Positions 7,552 to 15,680 of a DNA stretch of 35,871 bases are shown piece by piece. The stretch is from Spirochaetia bacterium (lineage in GTDB: Bacteria > Spirochaetota > Spirochaetia > CADAEX01). Under the pieces are notes generated by a model. The model ran no database searches. It was not told the DNA's origin and worked only from the letters and a program-made list of their open reading frames with translations. Where the stretch lies: assembly GCA_024402405.1 (NCBI GenBank), contig JAKSTW010000015.1:1-35871 (forward strand), read 5' to 3'. Both the position numbers and the translations under genes were made by a program. Position 1 is the stretch's first letter; each line of letters opens with the position of its first letter.

Positions 7552-8817
7552 TCAGTCAAGAACTCTGTTCATTATAGACATGGCTTCCCTTATCTGCGCA
7601 GATGTGATGATAAGAGGAGGTGCTATGATAAGAACATTTCCATGGGTGTAAGTGCTGAATCCCTCATTCATCAGCCTGCTGATAAGGTCTGTCATATATT
7701 CATCGGACACCGGTTCCCGGGTAGCTCTGTCCCTGACCAGCTCAATTCCCGCGAAGAGACCGATGCATCTGATATCACCGATACAGGAATGCTTCTTATA
7801 AAGTTTTTTCAGCTCACGTGCCAGAACTTTTCCTGTGAAAGCAACCTTTGCAGGAATGTTCAGGCGCTCATACTCACTGATAACTGCCAGTCCCACAGCA
7901 CAGCCCATAGGATATCCGCTGCATGTGAGTCCGCTGACCAGCTGGTGGCTGTCGAAATATGAGGCGATCTCACGGCTTACAATGACACCGCCCAGAGGGA
8001 CGTAACCGCAGGTGATGCCCTTGGAGAATGTTATGATATCAGGCTCCACATCCCAGTTCTGGCAGGCAAACCATTTTCCGGTACGCAGCCATCCGGTCAT
8101 GACCTCATCGCATACCATGAGAATGCCATATTTGGTGCAGAGTTTTCTGACTCCCTGCATATATCCGGCAGGAGGAATGATGATGCCGTTGCTGCCAGTG
8201 ACACTCTCCATGAAAATGGCTGCGATCTGATCAGCACCCTCAAATATTATCTGCTGTTCCAGGCGGGAGAGATACCAGGCTGTGGCCTCCTCCTCTGACT
8301 TGAAGCCCATGTTGTCACGGTAAATATACGGATCAAAGAATTTGACAAATCCGCTGAGTCCCGGTTCTGCAGCAAACCGTCTGGACTCTCCTGACAGATT
8401 GGCTGCTCCGAAAGTAGCTCCGTGGTATGAACGGTAACGGCTCATGACTTTATAACGACCTGTGAAAGCACGGGCAATGCGCAGAGCATGTTCATTGGAC
8501 TCAGCCCCCCCTAAGGTGAAAAGGACTTTGCCCATGTTGGCAGGCGCAAGGCTGATTATCTTATTTGCCAGCTCCTGGCGTCCATCAACATCATAAGCGG
8601 GAGAGATATAGCAGATCCTGTCAGCCTGTTCTTTGATAGCTCTGATTATCTTTCTGTTATGATGTCCGATGTTCACATTAACAAGCTGGGATGTCATGTC
8701 ATAATAACGTTTTCCGTTATCATCCCAGAAAAATACGCCCTCGCTTTTCACAACCTTGATAGGATTGTAACCGCCCTGAACTTTCCATGGATACAAGCTG
8801 CAGCTGTCATTTATCAT
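7552..8817 (-). CDS. Class III PLP-dependent aminotransferase
   Basis: A 421-residue fold-type I aminotransferase. It has MTSQLVNVNIGHHNRKI, LFTLGGAESNEHALRIAR, SYHGATFGAANLSGE, the aspartate motif MVCDEVMTGWLRTGKWFA and the PLP lysine in ITFSKGITCGYVPLGG. These motifs resemble omega-amino acid or diamine:pyruvate transaminases, so the substrate is probably a terminal amine or omega-amino acid, but that is not settled. Its start overlaps the end of nudC by 11 bases, placing the two in one transcript. After the stop there is only a weak hairpin (GACTG-CCTCT-CAGTC, about 7542-7556). Confidence 0.88.
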   Translation of the reverse strand: MINDSCSLYPWKVQGGYNPIKVVKSEGVFFWDDNGKRYYDMTSQLVNVNIGHHNRKIIRAIKEQADRICYISPAYDVDGRQELANKIISLAPANMGKVLFTLGGAESNEHALRIARAFTGRYKVMSRYRSYHGATFGAANLSGESRRFAAEPGLSGFVKFFDPYIYRDNMGFKSEEEATAWYLSRLEQQIIFEGADQIAAIFMESVTGSNGIIIPPAGYMQGVRKLCTKYGILMVCDEVMTGWLRTGKWFACQNWDVEPDIITFSKGITCGYVPLGGVIVSREIASYFDSHQLVSGLTCSGYPMGCAVGLAVISEYERLNIPAKVAFTGKVLARELKKLYKKHSCIGDIRCIGLFAGIELVRDRATREPVSDEYMTDLISRLMNEGFSTYTHGNVLIIAPPLIITSAQIREAMSIMNRVLD

Positions 8818-9652
8818 TGCAATTACCCTTTGTCTTTATAAAATTATTTATAAGTTTCCTGCTGATACTTCCGCAAGGTGGAATATCAGGCATTGAATCG
8901 GCTTTGAACCAGTCAGCCTTTATTATCTCAACACCGTCAGGATGGAGCTCTCCGGATTCCCACTCGGCGGTAAAGCCAAGCATGAAAGAATTAGGGAACG
9001 GCCAGCACTGACTGCCGAAATATTTTATATTTTTTACTTTTATGCCGACCTCTTCCATTATCTCACGGTGGATGGTGTCCTCTGCACTCTCGCCGCTTTC
9101 AACAAATCCAGCCAGGATGCTGTACCGCCCTGCCGGGAAATTGCTGTTGGATGCCAGCAGAAGTCTGTCCCCCTTAGTCACCGCCACGATCACAGCAGGA
9201 GAAAGAAGAGGATAATCTGTACGTCCGCATGAAGTACAGACTTTGGCACGCTCTGTCCCTGATGGCCGCATAGGCGCACCGCAGGAAGGACAGAATTTCC
9301 AGCTTTCAGTCCACCGGCTTATATGCCATGCACGACATATAAGATTGAACATATCCTCACCGACAGCCATGAAAAGATCTCTCGGCAGAGCATAAGGATA
9401 ATTCGCCACACCGCAGCAGTTGTGATAAGGTTCCTCGGTCTCAAACACCTGAGCCGTAAAGACATTCTTTCCGTTCAGCTGGCCTATGTAAACAGGCTCT
9501 GTTGTTTTAAGTCCAAGTTCAGAAGGTCTGAGGAGTTCAGGAAAGCGGATCGAATCTCCGCTGCCAAAATAAAGAACTTTACCTTTTTTAAAAAGGAACC
9601 AGAATCCCCTTTGCTCAGTATTATCACAAAAAACACCTGGTACAAATTCCAT
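8807..9652 (-). CDS. nudC: NAD+ diphosphatase NudC (also NAD-RNA decapping type)
   Basis: A 281-residue NudC. It hydrolyses NAD(H) to NMN(H) and AMP, and family members remove NAD caps from RNA. A zinc ribbon has C121, C124, C139 and C142; the Nudix box GX5EX7REUXEEXGU spans 182-204; the NudC signature SQxWPFPxS is SQCWPFPNS (214-222), with Cys where Pro is usual. I choose the ATG at 9652 because GGAG sits six bases upstream; the longer frame begins at a TTG at 9700 with no ribosome site. A TTGACC at 9713-9708 could be the -35 of its promoter. It overlaps the aminotransferase gene. Confidence 0.93.
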   Translation of the reverse strand: MEFVPGVFCDNTEQRGFWFLFKKGKVLYFGSGDSIRFPELLRPSELGLKTTEPVYIGQLNGKNVFTAQVFETEEPYHNCCGVANYPYALPRDLFMAVGEDMFNLICRAWHISRWTESWKFCPSCGAPMRPSGTERAKVCTSCGRTDYPLLSPAVIVAVTKGDRLLLASNSNFPAGRYSILAGFVESGESAEDTIHREIMEEVGIKVKNIKYFGSQCWPFPNSFMLGFTAEWESGELHPDGVEIIKADWFKADSMPDIPPCGSISRKLINNFIKTKGNCNDK

Positions 9653-9726
9653 AAATTTCTCCACAGGTAGAAATTTAATACTATTTAGCACATAAAGCAA
9701 TATAACAGGTCAAAAATTCATTGATG

Positions 9727-9858: not shown

Positions 9859-10614
9859 ATGAAAAAACAAGAACTTGGAACTGTAATATCAAATATCCAG
9901 GCAGCAAAAAACCTTCATTTCATAAAAATAAGGATCCCGGAGATCGCTCCGCTGCTCAGACCTGGAAATTTCATCAGCATACTTCCCCCTGCACAGTCAG
10001 GAGCTTTTCTCAGAAGACCATTCTCAGTGGCAGATGTCAGCGGTGATACCATAACACTGGTCATCAAAGCAATCGGCAAAGCCACAGCAGCCATCACCGG
10101 ACTTGCAGCCGGGGACAGAGCCGAGATCATGGGACCTCTTGGACATGGTTATCCTGAATTTGACAGGAATAAAAAAATATGGCTCATAGGCGGCGGAACA
10201 GGCATAGCCTCCCTCCTTTTCCTGGAATCCGGCAGAAAAGGGTGCCAGGACAGACTGCTGTGGGGCGGCAGGACAAAGGATGAGATCCCGGAAGCCTGCA
10301 ATATTCCGTGCAGATGCTTCATCTCAACAGATGACGGCACTGCAGGAGAGAAAGGAACATCAATAGATGTGGCAAAAAAATGGCTGAAAACAGAACGGCC
10401 AGATATCATAGTCTCATGCGGACCTCGCGGTCTGCTGAAGGCGGTGAAGCAGCTGTCGGCAGAAACCAGCATCCCAGCCTGGATCTCTACAGAAGAATTC
10501 ATGGCATGCGGAATGGGAGCCTGTGCCGGATGCGCAGTTCCGCTGGAAAAAGGCGGTTATGCCAAGGCCTGTGCTGACGGTCCTGTGTTTAAGGCAGAAG
10601 AGGTGATTCTATGA
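9859..10614 (+). CDS. pyrK: Dihydroorotate dehydrogenase electron-transfer subunit PyrK
   Basis: A 251-residue ferredoxin reductase-like protein. It passes electrons from dihydroorotate oxidation in PyrD to NAD+ through FAD and a [2Fe-2S] cluster. The FAD motif is RRPFS (52-56), the nucleotide-binding glycine motif is GGGTGIA (111-117), and the cluster ligands are C217, C222, C225 and C238 (C-x4-C-x2-C-x12-C). It overlaps pyrD by four bases, so the two subunits are made together. The gene has no Shine-Dalgarno and appears to be read from a leaderless mRNA. Confidence 0.94.
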   Translation: MKKQELGTVISNIQAAKNLHFIKIRIPEIAPLLRPGNFISILPPAQSGAFLRRPFSVADVSGDTITLVIKAIGKATAAITGLAAGDRAEIMGPLGHGYPEFDRNKKIWLIGGGTGIASLLFLESGRKGCQDRLLWGGRTKDEIPEACNIPCRCFISTDDGTAGEKGTSIDVAKKWLKTERPDIIVSCGPRGLLKAVKQLSAETSIPAWISTEEFMACGMGACAGCAVPLEKGGYAKACADGPVFKAEEVIL

Positions 10615-11534
10615 ATACATCCACAAAAATAGGAAATCTGGAACTTAAGAATCCATTCATCGCAGCCAGCGGAACTTACGGTTATGGCGTGGAATACACT
10701 GATCTTTCTCCGGCTGACCGCTGGGGAGCTGTGATCCTCAAGTCTGTGTCACCTAAGCCAAGGCCAGGAAACGTTCCGCCAAGGTGCTGCGAGACAGACT
10801 GCGGTATGATAAATTCCATCGGACTGGCCAACGAGGGACTTGAAGTATATATGAAGGAAAAGATTCCTGCATTCAGGAAGGCATTCCCCGGTGCCACATG
10901 CATAGCAAGTCTGGCAGGTGAGACATTGGAAGAATTTCTCCTTCTGGCTGAAAAACTCTCAGAAATGCCTGAAATAAAAGCTTTTGAGCTGAATATCAGC
11001 TGTCCTAATGTGGCCAAAGGCGGTATGCACTTCGGTGCTGACGGAAATGCATCCTGCCAGCTGGTGAGAGAATGCAAGAAAATCAGCAAAGTCCCGGTCT
11101 GGGTAAAAGTCACACCATCCACAACAGATCCTGTGGGTGTGGCTGCAGCCTGCGCAGAAGCAGGAGCTGATGCAGTGGTCGCCACAAATACCATACCTGC
11201 CATGAAAATAGATGTTCGCAGATGCAGACCTGTACTGGGAAATATTTTCGGAGGGCTCTCCGGACCGGCCATCTTTCCTGCATCACTGAGGATCGCATAT
11301 CTCATACACCGTGCACTGCCAGAACTGCCTCTCATAGGCTGCGGCGGAGTTGACTGCGGCGAAAAAGCAGTTCAGTTCATCCTGGCTGGATGCAGCGCAG
11401 TGGAAATAGGAACTGCCACATTCAGAAATCCGGGAACAGAGCAGCTGTGTCTGGAATATCTGGAAAAATATATGGCAGAAATGAAATTTGGCTCCATAGA
11501 GGATTTCAGGGCATTGGCTCACAGAACAAACTGA
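10611..11534 (+). CDS. pyrD: Dihydroorotate dehydrogenase, class 1B catalytic subunit
   Basis: A 307-residue TIM-barrel flavoenzyme that oxidises dihydroorotate to orotate in pyrimidine synthesis. Visible marks are the N-terminal NPFIAASGTYGYG, the substrate segment MINSIGLANEGL, the active-site ELNISCPNV with the Cys base that defines class 1, VWVKVTPS, and the FMN phosphate segments FGGLSGPAIFP and LIGCGGVDCG. The neighbouring pyrK makes it class 1B (NAD-linked). The last 29 bases overlap the end of exbD on the other strand, so there is no room for an ordinary terminator between them. Confidence 0.95.
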   Translation: MNTSTKIGNLELKNPFIAASGTYGYGVEYTDLSPADRWGAVILKSVSPKPRPGNVPPRCCETDCGMINSIGLANEGLEVYMKEKIPAFRKAFPGATCIASLAGETLEEFLLLAEKLSEMPEIKAFELNISCPNVAKGGMHFGADGNASCQLVRECKKISKVPVWVKVTPSTTDPVGVAAACAEAGADAVVATNTIPAMKIDVRRCRPVLGNIFGGLSGPAIFPASLRIAYLIHRALPELPLIGCGGVDCGEKAVQFILAGCSAVEIGTATFRNPGTEQLCLEYLEKYMAEMKFGSIEDFRALAHRTN

Positions 11535-11898
11535 AATTTCTGACACCTGTCTTCTTCAGCATATCCACAGCTGATATCACACTCTGATATGGCATATCTG
11601 ATGCGGCATAGAGGAAGACAGGCGTTTCAGGGTCTTTCAGCATACACTCCCCCACTTTGTGCATCATCATAAAAGTCGATATGCTGTGTCCGTTGTATAA
11701 GAATCCCTGGTCTGAAATATGCAGTTCCATCGGTTCTGCAGCTGCGGATCCTGTGCCGGCATAGCTGTTTCCATAACCAAATGATGGCATGAAAGTTCCC
11801 ACCACAAGAAAAAAAATCAGCAGAAGGAAAGCCAGATCACTGAATATGCCTGAAGAGAGGAAGTCCATCCTTTTTTTTCGGCAGCGTGCTATTCTCAT
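11506..11898 (-). CDS. exbD: ExbD/TolR-family proton-channel protein
   Basis: A ~130-residue protein with one N-terminal membrane helix (SDLAFLLLIFFLVVGTFM) that carries the family's essential aspartate, followed by a periplasmic domain with the late GVRNFSL strand. With ExbB it converts the proton gradient into force on a partner such as TonB or TolA; none is in this window. I favour the ATG at 11898 because it overlaps the exbB stop in ATGA; an ATG at 11916 would add MSQAEY. The 3' end overlaps pyrD by 29 bases. Confidence 0.87.
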   Translation of the reverse strand: MRIARCRKKRMDFLSSGIFSDLAFLLLIFFLVVGTFMPSFGYGNSYAGTGSAAAEPMELHISDQGFLYNGHSISTFMMMHKVGECMLKDPETPVFLYAASDMPYQSVISAVDMLKKTGVRNFSLFCEPMP

Positions 11899-12512
11899 AT
11901 ATTCTGCCTGTGACATTCAGCCAGAATGATCTTGCAGCTGTTCTCAAGGGACACAATATATTTATCCGCCATCGCTGCATAGATATGATAGAAAACAACT
12001 GCAAACACAGCTATGATAAGACCGAAAGCTGTGGTAATAAGAGCCTCAAAAATACCGGATGCAGCCAGACGTGCACTTATATCATCGGCACGGGCAATAT
12101 CCATGAAAGTCCGGATCATACCGGTGACAGTTCCAAGAAATCCTGTGACAGGGGCAATGGAGCTTACAGCAGAAAGAATACCCAGGTGTCTTTCCACCAT
12201 GATACCGCTCCCGGAAATGGCAGCTTCAGCAATTTCCAGTGAATCAGGATCATCAATAATTGTACGGTAAACAGCGGCACAGAGTTTCTTGCCTGACTGC
12301 CTTTCAAGGATCTTACCGGCCGAAGCTCTGTCCCCTTTTTTCAATTCAGCAGACACCTCAGCAGCCAGATCTGAAGTGCGAAGATCTATGGTCAGGAAGA
12401 AAACAGCCTTTTCAAGAATCACAGCAACTGTGACCAGCGAAAAAACCGCAAGTACCCACATGAGCGGTCCGCCCAGCAGAAACAAATCCATCAGTCTGAT
12501 ATTCTCTTCCAT
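11895..12512 (-). CDS. exbB: ExbB/TolQ/MotA-family proton-channel protein
   Basis: A 205-residue protein with three hydrophobic segments, a cytoplasmic loop of about 90 residues between the first and second, and the family signature SSIAPVTGFLGTVTGMIRTF followed by SGIFEALITTAFGLIIAVFAV. It forms the pentameric channel around the ExbD dimer. I choose the ATG at 12512, which has GAGG five bases upstream; a longer frame from a TTG at 12572 lacks a ribosome site. It is divergent from sir2, and the two promoters appear to share a -35 box. Confidence 0.9.
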   Translation of the reverse strand: MEENIRLMDLFLLGGPLMWVLAVFSLVTVAVILEKAVFFLTIDLRTSDLAAEVSAELKKGDRASAGKILERQSGKKLCAAVYRTIIDDPDSLEIAEAAISGSGIMVERHLGILSAVSSIAPVTGFLGTVTGMIRTFMDIARADDISARLAASGIFEALITTAFGLIIAVFAVVFYHIYAAMADKYIVSLENSCKIILAECHRQNI

Positions 12513-12542
12513 AGCAACCTCATATCCAAATAAGTTTTCATA

Positions 12543-12572
12543 ATAATAACCTGAATATATTTCTGTGGACAA
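12543..12572 (-). promoter_or_regulatory. Promoter of exbB-exbD
   Basis: On the minus strand TTGTCC (12572-12567), then TTATTA at 17 bases (12549-12544) or TATTAT at 18 bases (12548-12543). The -35 hexamer is the complement of the sir2 -35. Confidence 0.45.
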
Positions 12573-12604
12573 TAGGATTTATTGCTGATAAAATAAATCC
12601 AGTC
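12566..12604 (+). promoter_or_regulatory. Promoter of the sirtuin operon, probably leaderless
   Basis: TGGACA (12566-12571), 17 bases, TAAAAT (12589-12594), then ten bases to the ATG at 12605 with no Shine-Dalgarno. The -35 lies on the same bases as the exbB -35 on the other strand. Confidence 0.5.
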
Positions 12605-13339
12605 ATGAAACAGTTTATTGATCTGCTTAAAAATTCAGAATATTGTGTGGTTTTCACAGGTGCCGGAGTGTCAACTCTGGCTGGAATCAAAGATTTCCGC
12701 GGCAAAAATGGCCTTTATAATACAGCCGGAGCCGATGCCGAGAAAATCTTCGACATAGATTATTTCAGGAAAGATCCATCTTTCTATTACAGGGCTGCAA
12801 AAAATTTCATATACAATCTGGAAGACAAAGTGCCGGCCATAGTGCATACAGAACTGGCCAGGCTTGAGAAAATGGGCATTGTGAAGGCTGTCATCACCCA
12901 GAATATTGACCTGCTCCATCAGAAAGCAGGCTCAAAGAAAGTCATAGAGGTCCACGGCTCACCTGAGATACACAGATGCAGAAAATGCGGCAAGATCTTT
13001 CACTTCAATGAGATCGTACCGGTAGTGCAGAAAGATGAAGTTCCCAAATGTGACAGATGCGGCGGAATAATAAAACCTGACATCACATTTTTCGGAGAAT
13101 CCCTTCCTCCGATGGCAGTCGATGAGGCCATATATGAGGCATCAAAAGCCGACCTGATGGTAATTCTGGGTTCCACACTGGTGGTTCAGCCAGCAGCATC
13201 TTTTCCGCTGTATGCGCTCAGAAACGGCGGCAAACTTGTCATCGTCAACAACATGGAGACTCCATTGGATTATCTGGCAGTACAGAGATATGATGACCTG
13301 GAGACTGTCTTTAATTATATATCAGAAAATTTGAAGTGA
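12605..13339 (+). CDS. Sir2-family NAD+-dependent protein deacylase
   Basis: A 244-residue single-domain sirtuin (CobB-like). It transfers acyl groups from lysine to NAD+, giving nicotinamide and O-acyl-ADP-ribose. The NAD site has GAGVS (19-23) and IKDFRG; TQNIDLLHQKAG holds Q99, N100 and D102; the general base is H117 in VHGS; the zinc site is C125, C128, C149 and C152. The loop after GAGVS reads TLAGIKDFRG in place of the usual SGIPDFRG, a modest departure. It lies four bases before a second, divergent SIR2-like gene and the two should be cotranslated. Substrates cannot be inferred. Confidence 0.93.
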   Translation: MKQFIDLLKNSEYCVVFTGAGVSTLAGIKDFRGKNGLYNTAGADAEKIFDIDYFRKDPSFYYRAAKNFIYNLEDKVPAIVHTELARLEKMGIVKAVITQNIDLLHQKAGSKKVIEVHGSPEIHRCRKCGKIFHFNEIVPVVQKDEVPKCDRCGGIIKPDITFFGESLPPMAVDEAIYEASKADLMVILGSTLVVQPAASFPLYALRNGGKLVIVNNMETPLDYLAVQRYDDLETVFNYISENLK

Positions 13340-13343
13340 GATC

Positions 13344-14321
13344 ATGTACAATTACAAAAGAATATTCATTTTAGGATCAGGTTTTTCAAAGGCAATATCA
13401 AAGAAGATGCCGTCTATGAGTGAACTTACAGAACAGCTTCAGTCCCCTGCCGGCAACAGATACAAAGAACTATGGGATACAGTCAGTTATTATAAAAAGC
13501 AATCAAACAACTCAGAATTGCTGTCTGTAGAAAATGTGACATCACTGATCCTCGGAAGACAGATCTTCTACAACAATGATATGCACCTCCATTACAGGAT
13601 ACTTAAGAATCAGATAATTCACTGGCTGTATGAAAAAATCGATACAGCAGCCCATAATGTGGATAATGACAAAATTCAGGGAGTGATCGATTTTATAAAA
13701 GGATGTGCCATAGGTGACAGGAACGGCAGAAAATCACTGGTCATGACTTTCAACTATGACCTTCTTCTGGAGAGACTTTTCAACCAGTATATTGCCAGCC
13801 CTGCCCTTAACATGAACTATGTGGTCAAACTGAGACGGTACTTCGATACTGATTTCGGAGAGAATAATATGTCAAAGGAATTGCAGGGAACTTTCCAATA
13901 TCTGAAACTCCACGGTTCTTTCAACTGGTTCAGATCCCCGGGAAGCCAGAACACAAACTTTGACAATGTTTTTCTGGTGACAGACTCAGACCAGAGCAGA
14001 GACCTCATTCACTACGATGACACTCCTGTATTTATCCCTATGGCATACGTCAAGGGTATTTTCCTCAGCGGAAGTTTTTACAATATACTGTGGAATATCG
14101 CATGGCGGTATCTGGAAACAGCTGATGAGATCATTTTCCTGGGATATGGATTCCCAGCCACAGATCTTGACAATATGGTCTGCTTTCTGCAGTTCAAGGA
14201 TAAAATAAAGCATATCGTAATAAAAGAAAACAATGATAAGATCCAGAGATTGAACAACATTTTCGGCAGCGAGAAAATCATCAATATGGATGCTTACGAC
14301 TACATTGTAAATATGATCTGA
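13344..14321 (+). CDS. SIR2-like (SIR2_2 type) protein, possible NADase
   Basis: A 325-residue protein with a divergent sirtuin fold: GSGFS (11-15) at the nucleotide loop, TFNYD with N137, LHGSFNW with H190, and a late FLGYGFPATDLDN (about 265-277). The N of the TxNYD motif and the H of the LHG motif correspond to catalytic residues of NAD-cleaving SIR2 domains in defence proteins such as ThsA and DSR. It has no zinc cysteines, so it is not a deacylase of the ordinary kind. There is no fused sensor domain, and the inserted middle (about 40-130) is helical. It follows the canonical sirtuin by four bases, an unusual pairing. Function is unknown; NAD cleavage is inferred. Confidence 0.75.
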   Translation: MYNYKRIFILGSGFSKAISKKMPSMSELTEQLQSPAGNRYKELWDTVSYYKKQSNNSELLSVENVTSLILGRQIFYNNDMHLHYRILKNQIIHWLYEKIDTAAHNVDNDKIQGVIDFIKGCAIGDRNGRKSLVMTFNYDLLLERLFNQYIASPALNMNYVVKLRRYFDTDFGENNMSKELQGTFQYLKLHGSFNWFRSPGSQNTNFDNVFLVTDSDQSRDLIHYDDTPVFIPMAYVKGIFLSGSFYNILWNIAWRYLETADEIIFLGYGFPATDLDNMVCFLQFKDKIKHIVIKENNDKIQRLNNIFGSEKIINMDAYDYIVNMI

Positions 14322-14595
14322 GATAGACCTGCCGTGCCAGCAGTGTGAACGGGAACCAGAGAGATCCCAGCACCACAGTGAATATAAAACCTTTTATCAG
14401 GATTCTCATATTGATGGCAAAAGTTATAGACGTTCCCTTTGACAGCAATGACTTATAGACCGGCAGCAATATGTGCTCCTGAGAAAAATTCATCACAGCA
14501 GGATATATGAACCAGAAGATCGCCAGCGGAAGAAAAAACAGCAGCAATATCATGGTTCCCCAGAAATATTTTTTCATCCGCGGTCTCAATTCCAT
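14281..14595 (-). CDS. Small two-helix membrane protein, unknown function
   Basis: A 104-residue protein (98 if the second ATG at 14577 is used) with two strong hydrophobic segments: about residues 11-35 (WGTMILLLFFLPLAIFWFIY) and about 66-90 (IKGFIFTVVLGSLWFPFTLLA). No family recognised. Its start overlaps the end of the Nudix-SGNH gene by ten bases, so it is probably cotranslated with it. Its last 41 bases overlap the SIR2-like gene on the other strand. The hydrophobic pattern and operon position support a real gene rather than an antisense shadow. Confidence 0.6.
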   Translation of the reverse strand: MELRPRMKKYFWGTMILLLFFLPLAIFWFIYPAVMNFSQEHILLPVYKSLLSKGTSITFAINMRILIKGFIFTVVLGSLWFPFTLLARQVYLRSYLQCSRKHPY

Positions 14596-15680
14596 TCAGT
14601 CCTGTTGATGAAATCTGCGAAGCACAGTCCCAAATATCTGTTAGCTGGCCCATCAAAGTGGATACCGTCCGTGCCGTCACAGGAGACAAATCTCCCTGCT
14701 TCTATGAAAGTACATCCGTATTTTTCTGCCACTCTCATGATCTCGGCAGGAAGGCTCCTGGATTTGTTCACCTGGCTCTCGAAAAAGCTGAAGAAAAGAT
14801 CATCCTCGTTGCAGTTGGTGGATATAGGGACAGGAGCAGTGAGGAAAATCCGGATATTTTTATTCTTGGCCCTCAGTATTTCAGCCATAGTACCCATACC
14901 GTCTGCAATAGCGGCAACAGACACCTCAGAAGATGCCATAGTATCATTGTTGCCCAGCATTATCATGACACCATCATACTCTGCCAGGTCTGTGCGCTTT
15001 TCCAGTGCCTGAATTCCATTGGTAGGCTCGTCACCAGGCATATAATTCAGCACTGTGCGGCCACATACCCCATCCTCCGTCACTTCAAAACAGGCAGGAA
15101 TATATTTTTTCATGACACATGGCCACCGGGTCTCCTCATCAAAGCGTCCGCCACCCTGCCAGTCATATCCCCAGGTACTGGAACTGCCGTAACACAGTAT
15201 TTTTTTCTTCTTATCAAACACCTGGATGCCGCCAGAAGTCATGCTGTCTCCGTCAAAAGTGAACTGTCCTGAGAAATATTTTCCATCCAGCAGAGCAGGC
15301 AGCCACAGTCTGTCATCAGCCCACATCCGGTCATAAGGCATCTCAGACACAGGACACCAGAATGGGTCAGCCTCATCTGTCTCTGCAAGCGTCCCCGAAT
15401 ACGATGTGGCTTTGAACACATAGCCTCCCAGTGAATAACCATCAGCAAAAGCAAAATCAAGAGTGCCCACCAGCACCGGATCCTCAGGAGTCAGCCCGAT
15501 CTCTTCCCGGCATTCACGGACAGCAGCCTGAACCGGGGTCTCCCCTTTCTCTATCCGTCCTCCTGGAGCATTGACCTTTCCCTTTCCCAATCCTCTCTTC
15601 TTGACGATCAGAAGAACTTTATCATCCTTAAAAATATATGTTATGACTGCCCGCTCAGCAGGTTTCCAGTTTCCATCCAT
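14586..15680 (-). CDS. Fusion: MTH1-like Nudix hydrolase plus SGNH/GDSL hydrolase
   Basis: A 364-residue two-domain protein. Residues 1-145 are a Nudix domain: the Nudix box is 41-63, and MPYDRMWADDRLWLPALL closely resembles the MTH1/NUDT1 base-recognition segment with the paired aspartates (D122, D123), so oxidised purine nucleoside triphosphates are likely substrates. Residues about 160-364 are an SGNH hydrolase: block I GSSSTWGYD (nucleophile S167, with Ser where the usual GDS has Asp), block II G207, block III GNND (243-246), block V DGIH with D338 and H341. I know no established role for this pair in one chain. The gene has a near-consensus promoter with the -10 box eight bases from the ATG. 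Confidence 0.88.
   Translation of the reverse strand: MDGNWKPAERAVITYIFKDDKVLLIVKKRGLGKGKVNAPGGRIEKGETPVQAAVRECREEIGLTPEDPVLVGTLDFAFADGYSLGGYVFKATSYSGTLAETDEADPFWCPVSEMPYDRMWADDRLWLPALLDGKYFSGQFTFDGDSMTSGGIQVFDKKKKILCYGSSSTWGYDWQGGGRFDEETRWPCVMKKYIPACFEVTEDGVCGRTVLNYMPGDEPTNGIQALEKRTDLAEYDGVMIMLGNNDTMASSEVSVAAIADGMGTMAEILRAKNKNIRIFLTAPVPISTNCNEDDLFFSFFESQVNKSRSLPAEIMRVAEKYGCTFIEAGRFVSCDGTDGIHFDGPANRYLGLCFADFINRTEWN

Follow-up and report, generated by a model that had tools for sequence, protein, structure and literature searches.

We identified a gene pair in a genus of uncultured spirochaetes, known from ruminant-gut assemblies, in which a canonical sirtuin gene is followed almost immediately by a gene for a predicted NAD-cleaving protein of the SIR2_2 family. 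The DNA analysed (the window, 35,871 nucleotides) is one of the 53 contigs that make up a 1.5-Mb draft genome. As far as sampling shows, the pair is peculiar to the genus; its relatives have one of the two genes and lack the other next to it. We lean towards the view that the second gene encodes an NADase effector specific to this lineage, which was gained at a site just behind a housekeeping sirtuin and is passively co-expressed with it. On this reading, a defence-type SIR2 gene has come to lie close to a housekeeping sirtuin throughout the genus, and the relatives that have one gene but not the other serve as natural controls. The parts are of known kinds and the arrangement is a genus-level variant. 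The open-licence literature searched, in the portions available, describes no pair of a canonical sirtuin and a SIR2_2 protein, which is weak evidence of absence; the accessible part of a comparative study of NAD-linked systems likewise contains no such pair (PMC9503650).

The two genes and their predicted products

The first gene (12605–13339, + strand) encodes a protein of 244 amino acids that is, judged by its sequence, a canonical zinc-binding, NAD-dependent protein deacylase of the Sir2/CobB type. The product covers the whole PF02146 profile (1–180 of 180, 175.5 bits, above the Pfam cut-off), and its best solved relative is Sir2 of T. maritima (1yc5, 239.8 bits over residues 1–230). It carries GAGVS at residue 19, TQNID at 98–102 (12896–12910, +, with N100 and D102; identical in the seven aligned genus members) and EVHG at 115 (H117), as well as a zinc ribbon that can be read from Cys125, Cys128, Cys149 and Cys152 (12977–13060, +). 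The sirtuins of six congeners are 81–83% identical to that of the window. The window protein has CxxC as its second zinc pair; each of the six congeners has CxC there (L020–L025).

The second gene (13344–14321, +) follows after the four bases GATC (13340–13343, +), a gap that is a single base in each of the six congeners. It encodes a predicted NAD-cleaving effector of 325 amino acids with a single domain, assigned by Pfam, PADLOC and fold matches. SIR2_2 (PF13289) is its sole Pfam match (31.0 bits against a cut-off of 24.5), and PADLOC SIR2 models match it with up to 46.8 bits, twelve of them at E ≤0.001. The expected nucleotide-binding loop is GSGFS (residues 11–15, 13374–13388, +), in which G11, G13, F14 and S15 are invariant in nine of nine aligned homologues. 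Equally invariant in the nine are TFNYD (residues 135–139, 13746–13760, +), with the predicted catalytic N137, and LHG (residues 189–191, 13908–13916, +), with the predicted catalytic H190. A reading of the sequence for motifs found no CxxC zinc pairs. The first-pass annotation had described a zinc-binding deacylase four bases from a zinc-less SIR2_2 protein with TxNYD and LHG motifs (N137 and H190), and the sequence bears this description out. An NCBIfam radical-SAM match of the second protein (18 bits against a cut-off of 262) was dismissed as noise, and a search of PHROGs gave no match. A recent tandem duplication of the sirtuin as the source of the SIR2_2 gene was ruled out, because a direct BLASTP comparison of the two window proteins gives only E 2.7.

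Mutants at the residues corresponding to this Asn/His pair are known from several defence proteins. Changes at N112/H152 of ThsA (PMC7272460), N133/H171 of DSR2 (PMC10981675) and N168/H227 of Vibrio cholerae SIR2-HerA (PMC11559045) abolish or reduce NAD cleavage or immunity, according to the available portions of these papers. By analogy, the SIR2_2 protein should be a predicted NADase that is held inactive until triggered.

The single SIR2_2 protein retrieves nothing from the PDB by phmmer up to E 1. A profile of nine SIR2_2 sequences finds the SIR2 proteins 8yhx (E 4e-6) and 8w9l (E 5.4e-6), whose NYD and HGSINW motifs align with the motifs of the window protein in this profile search. We also modelled the window protein and its orthologue from congener G002 with AlphaFold2, using nine sequences in each case (pLDDT 61.9 and pTM 0.66; pLDDT 68.2 and pTM 0.72, respectively). 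The VIA-align comparison places the SIR2 chain of SIR2-HerA first for both, with Z 12.9 (rmsd 5.5 over 262 residues) for the window model and Z 13.1 (rmsd 5.9 over 268 residues) for the G002 model. All eight Foldseek matches of the window model at E ≤0.001 are SIR2-HerA or FAM118B, and all seven of the G002 model are SIR2-HerA, Avs5 or FAM118B. FAM118B is absent from the best 50 VIA-align rows for either model, and ThsA is present for the second model only. SIRT5, Avs5, KomC, SPARSA and DSR2 trail the top fold match by about 1–3 Z units, and canonical SIRT5, at Z 11.1 and 10.9 for the two models, lies above or level with several of the defence proteins. The fold alone cannot separate an NADase from a deacylase, because SIRT5 scores so close, the matches of both models have rmsd of 5–6 Å and TM-scores of about 0.5 or less, and the AlphaFold confidence is middling. 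The models place the protein in the sirtuin fold family, closest to the NADase branch, at a level short of an exact subfamily.

Distribution and exchange of the SIR2_2 gene

The two genes stand side by side, with intact reading frames and a gap of one or four bases, in all seven genomes of the genus, so the pairing first noticed in the window is no oddity of this strain. The SIR2_2 protein of the window is 53–57% identical to those of the six congeners. In the sister genus, the other genus of the family, the sirtuin is present in 4/4 genomes (60–63% identical). However, the SIR2_2 query matched none of these four, one of which (G007) is 58% complete, and a convergent gene of 692–704 amino acids adjoins the sirtuin instead in each of them. 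The gene ychF lies 5–6.5 kb beyond the sirtuin and in the same orientation in three of the four fetched sister-genus loci. This arrangement hints, short of proof, that the sirtuin was there first and that SIR2_2 is the newcomer.

Beyond the family the gene is patchy. Of 394 genomes drawn from the class, ten match the genus SIR2_2 profile at E ≤1e-8, namely the seven genus members and three of the 387 others. The closest SIR2_2 protein outside the genus, in G409 of another family, is a full-length protein with 39% identity to that of the window; it keeps F136 to D139 and LHG, and has serine for T135. Its gene neighbours, named by eye, are an AraC-like gene on the opposite strand and permease-like genes, with no sirtuin within 9 kb and none detected in 19.5 kb. 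The only sirtuin match of G409 is on another contig, as is also the case for the other two matches outside the genus. The search of the order to which G409 belongs covered one genome.

In a draw of 392 genomes of the phylum, PF13289 matches at 58 places in 47 genomes, four of which places are genus pairs. No sirtuin was found beside 32 of the 54 non-pair places (30 fetched in the phylum draw and two fetched earlier), nor beside L036, by tblastn with the seven genus sirtuins across flanks of about 1.5 kb, shorter at contig ends, a search that very divergent sirtuins may escape. Elsewhere in their genomes, G008 of the sister genus and the congener G001 each encode a further PF13289 protein, which the window SIR2_2 query does not match. 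A scan of the contigs of 84,980 species returned only the six congeners; it used two short peptide patterns and missed the G409-like relative, and is therefore no proof of absence. We also considered a mobile-element origin for SIR2_2 and rejected it. The protein has no match at E 0.01 in 50,697 phage records, its plasmid matches are five records at 25–30% identity, and its viral-contig homologues are two distant ones (L043 and L044), further viral scans having returned only those two or nothing.

Within the genus the surroundings are stable. The order pyrK-pyrD-sirtuin-SIR2_2-Nudix-GDSL is collinear in all six congeners, with pyrD in two pieces in G006. ychF comes after this block in the five congeners whose contigs reach that far, and in G002 it lies about 3 kb farther on. 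There, a radical-SAM-like gene (473 amino acids, named by eye) and a gene of 332 amino acids stand between Nudix-GDSL and ychF (L021:13338–15721); the region therefore takes up inserts. Since the whole neighbourhood is syntenic, and pyrK-pyrD and Nudix-GDSL are equally collinear, conserved adjacency proves little, and we discounted it as support for a functional link between the sirtuin and SIR2_2.

A Pfam scan of the neighbours at 9859–15680 in the window found pyrimidine, ExbB/ExbD-like and Nudix-GDSL genes, and no defence genes. The pair is flanked directly by exbB, a short ORF without a Pfam match and the Nudix-GDSL gene. The exbD-exbB (TolR/TolQ-like) pair lies at 11506–12572 (−), between pyrD and the sirtuin; neither exbB nor exbD was found in the loci fetched from the six congeners. 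The gene at 14586–15680 (−) encodes two domains, a Nudix hydrolase followed by a GDSL-type esterase, and adjoins SIR2_2 in the six congeners also. Farther away, at 8807–9700 (−), is a gene for a NudC-like protein, in which zinc-ribbon cysteines and a Nudix box were read by eye. This is another possible NAD-linked gene, and the loci fetched from the congeners contain no full-length match to it.

Among the six congeners, purifying selection acts on SIR2_2 (dN/dS 0.04–0.09); between the window and its congeners synonymous sites are saturated. Intact homologues in all seven genomes, together with this congener dN/dS, make the pair more than a product of chance. The protein diverges about as fast as a housekeeping neighbour, PyrK, which is 58–63% identical between the window and the congeners; the corresponding dN values are 0.37–0.42 for SIR2_2 and 0.32–0.39 for pyrK. 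We therefore set aside fast evolution of SIR2_2 as the mark of an arms race. The GC content of SIR2_2 is below that of the sirtuin in all seven genus members.

These observations bear on two other views of the gene. One holds that SIR2_2 is a non-defence enzyme, such as a low-turnover NAD glycohydrolase, an ADP-ribosyltransferase or an NAD sensor, which would be kept in all sampled species because of a role in the NAD and acylation economy of the genus. Its presence at one syntenic site in every genus genome, the purifying selection among congeners and the lack of defence genes among the Pfam-scanned neighbours agree with such a role. However, the best profile and fold relatives of the protein are defence SIR2 proteins and only three of the 387 other genomes in the class draw carry a match at E ≤1e-8, and we consider this view unlikely. 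The other holds that the adjacency reflects a shared promoter and nothing else, SIR2_2 being a captured gene with no current NAD-tied role in the cell. The collinear block in the six congeners and the consistently lower GC of SIR2_2 would fit a captured gene, but low dN/dS among the congeners and invariant active-site residues speak against it, and it seems to us very improbable indeed.

The SIR2_2 allele of one congener was replaced by recombination between species, and the sirtuin and the other neighbours were unaffected. Windowed identity between G004 and G005 is 91–97% over the sirtuin, 73–85% over SIR2_2 and back to at least 91% from the point where the Nudix gene begins. The synonymous distance between the two species is 1.45 for SIR2_2, compared with 0.18–0.25 for pyrK, pyrD, the sirtuin and ychF. 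The SIR2_2 sequences reject a clade of G004 and G005 (AU p 3.9e-7), which the sirtuin, pyrK, pyrD and ychF recover at 94–100% bootstrap. The recipient is more likely G005 than G004, because the distances of G004 to G002 and G006 are ordinary. A single exchange, in one pair of species, provides thin support for a phage arms race.

In addition, the exchange bears on a further alternative, a module of two sirtuins in which the canonical sirtuin would control the SIR2_2 protein by lysine deacylation, turning it on or off, or by co-assembly in the manner of FAM118A/B. SIR2_2 was exchanged without the sirtuin. However, the sirtuins of G004 and G005 are 99% identical, so a swapped allele meets nearly the same partner, and interaction between the two proteins is compatible with the exchange. 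Against such a module also stand the G409 homologue, which is alone with its sirtuin on another contig, the sister genus, which keeps the sirtuin and in which SIR2_2 was not found, and the equal conservation of neighbouring gene pairs in the block. On the other side, the spacing of one to four bases has been kept despite saturated synonymous sites between the window and its congeners, and single-domain SIR2 proteins use partners in FAM118A/B, SIR2-HerA and KomB-KomC, as reported in the accessible portions of the respective papers (PMC12700824, PMC11559045, PMC12948488). We think it improbable that the two genes form a module of this kind.

The first-pass annotation had taken the coupling to suggest regulation of one protein by the other or a two-part module. 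This interpretation is not supported, in view of the sister genus, where the sirtuin is present and the SIR2_2 query matched nothing, the SIR2_2 gene of G409 with no sirtuin within 9 kb, the independent exchange of SIR2_2 and the fact that 0/30 other SIR2_2 loci of the phylum lie beside a detectable sirtuin. The solitary gene of G409, the situation in the sister genus and the separate exchange of the SIR2_2 allele favour a loose link between sirtuin and SIR2_2; one of the two may regulate the other.

Expression and proposed role

Upstream of the sirtuin is a candidate sigma-70-like promoter, TGGACA-17-TAAAAT with TG before the second hexamer (12566–12594, +). It is a consensus match only, agreeing at 10 of 12 letters, and when the upstream 70 bases were shuffled, 49 of 1000 trials reached its score. 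The same scan found no further plus-strand promoter sites up to 13590, including the region before the SIR2_2 start. The best promoter match in each of the six congeners agrees at 8/12 letters and was reached by 237–697 of 1000 shuffles; GGAGG precedes the sirtuin in the congeners. Most simply, SIR2_2 is probably read from the sirtuin transcript, with its translation coupled, and the close spacing, kept through long divergence, points to selection for joint expression. The promoter match in 6/6 congeners, no better than in shuffles, counts against the shared-promoter view.

In the mechanism that we favour, SIR2_2 would be an NAD+-cleaving effector of antiphage or abortive type that consists of the SIR2 domain alone, with both NAD cleavage and the defence role predicted from its relatives. 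Because the SIR2 domain is alone, the effector would have to be triggered by a partner or a ligand, or by assembling with itself. The SIR2_2 gene would have come to sit directly behind the housekeeping sirtuin in the genus ancestor, where it would be expressed from the sirtuin promoter, its translation probably coupled to the sirtuin stop codon. The sirtuin would provide steady co-expression, and would not be an obligate partner. On triggering, the effector would lower cellular NAD+ and growth would halt. The setting of the gene counts against a defence effector. It occupies one stable chromosomal site throughout the genus, which makes it less mobile than most defence genes, and the neighbours at 9859–15680 include no defence genes.

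A more elaborate possibility is a deacylase-gated switch for NAD depletion, in which the sirtuin would sense the NAD or acylation state of the cell and restrain SIR2_2, for example by keeping it deacylated and silent or through the sirtuin product O-acyl-ADP-ribose. We regard this as doubtful in the extreme, and just as doubtful the corollary that phage or stress blocking the sirtuin would release the NADase. If true, the gated switch would be a two-sirtuin guard system unlike described SIR2 systems. Under the favoured reading, in which there is no mutual regulation, the locus would be a tidy example of a defence gene on a housekeeping promoter.

Comparison with known SIR2 systems

The first gene resembles CobB and T. 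maritima Sir2 in its full-length match, its zinc cysteines and its catalytic motifs, and nothing notable differs, apart from the CxC form of the second zinc pair in the congeners. The macrodomain-linked sirtuin (SirTM) operons are likewise built round a sirtuin. However, no macrodomain is present among the scanned neighbours, the partner here is a SIR2_2 protein, and the first gene encodes a deacylase of the T. maritima type.

KomC (of KomBC), Avs5, SPARSA, DSR2 and ThsA share the SIR2 fold with the second protein, with Z 9.6–11.9 among the matches listed, but their infection-sensing domains or partners are absent from the SIR2_2 protein and its scanned neighbours. For Thoeris, the SLOG domain is absent, as SIR2_2 is the sole Pfam match of the 325 amino acids, and a genome-wide search with PF13676 (TIR_2) gave no match. 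We ruled out membership of DSR1/DSR2 by length, 325 amino acids against about 1000 with a large C-terminal part (DSR2 chains have up to 992 residues). Pfam detected no APAZ domain or Argonaute, as in SPARSA, in the SIR2_2 protein or the neighbours at 9859–15680. KomA and KomB of Kongming (KomABC) have deaminase and HAM1-type domains, neither of which was found by Pfam among the same neighbours. KomB with dITP is the partner for KomC, a short SIR2 protein, according to the available part of the report (PMC12948488).

The closest likeness is to SIR2-HerA (Nezha), which provides the nearest solved relatives by profile (8yhx, 8w9l and 8j4u), comes first by fold (Z 11.8–13.1) and has the same Asn and His motifs. 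It also has a SIR2 chain with a separate partner protein; the accessible text of one study states that full immunity needs herA (PMC11559045). However, the SIR2 chains of SIR2-HerA are 381–428 amino acids long against 325 here, and identity in the structural alignments is 11–16%. No herA gene lies beside the window pair. The genome's two DUF87 matches, on other contigs, were read by eye as a YjgR/DUF853-like ATPase and FtsK. Having sought a HerA partner across the genome and found none beside the SIR2_2 gene, we rejected membership of this system.

The vertebrate proteins FAM118A and FAM118B share the single-domain SIR2_2 fold and the Asn/His pair with the window protein, and FAM118B (9r0p) is a Foldseek match at E 2.5e-4 and 1.3e-4 for the two models. 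The sequence-profile match of FAM118 to the window SIR2_2 protein is non-significant (E 0.33). In the available portion of one report, human FAM118A and FAM118B alone have very weak activity and together process NAD, which provides a precedent of two sirtuin-fold partners for the coupling first proposed for this locus (PMC12700824). Both FAM118 partners are SIR2_2 proteins, whereas one member of the window pair is a canonical zinc deacylase. If mutual regulation were true, the pair would be a bacterial counterpart of FAM118A/B and would connect protein deacylation with cell suicide through depletion of NAD.
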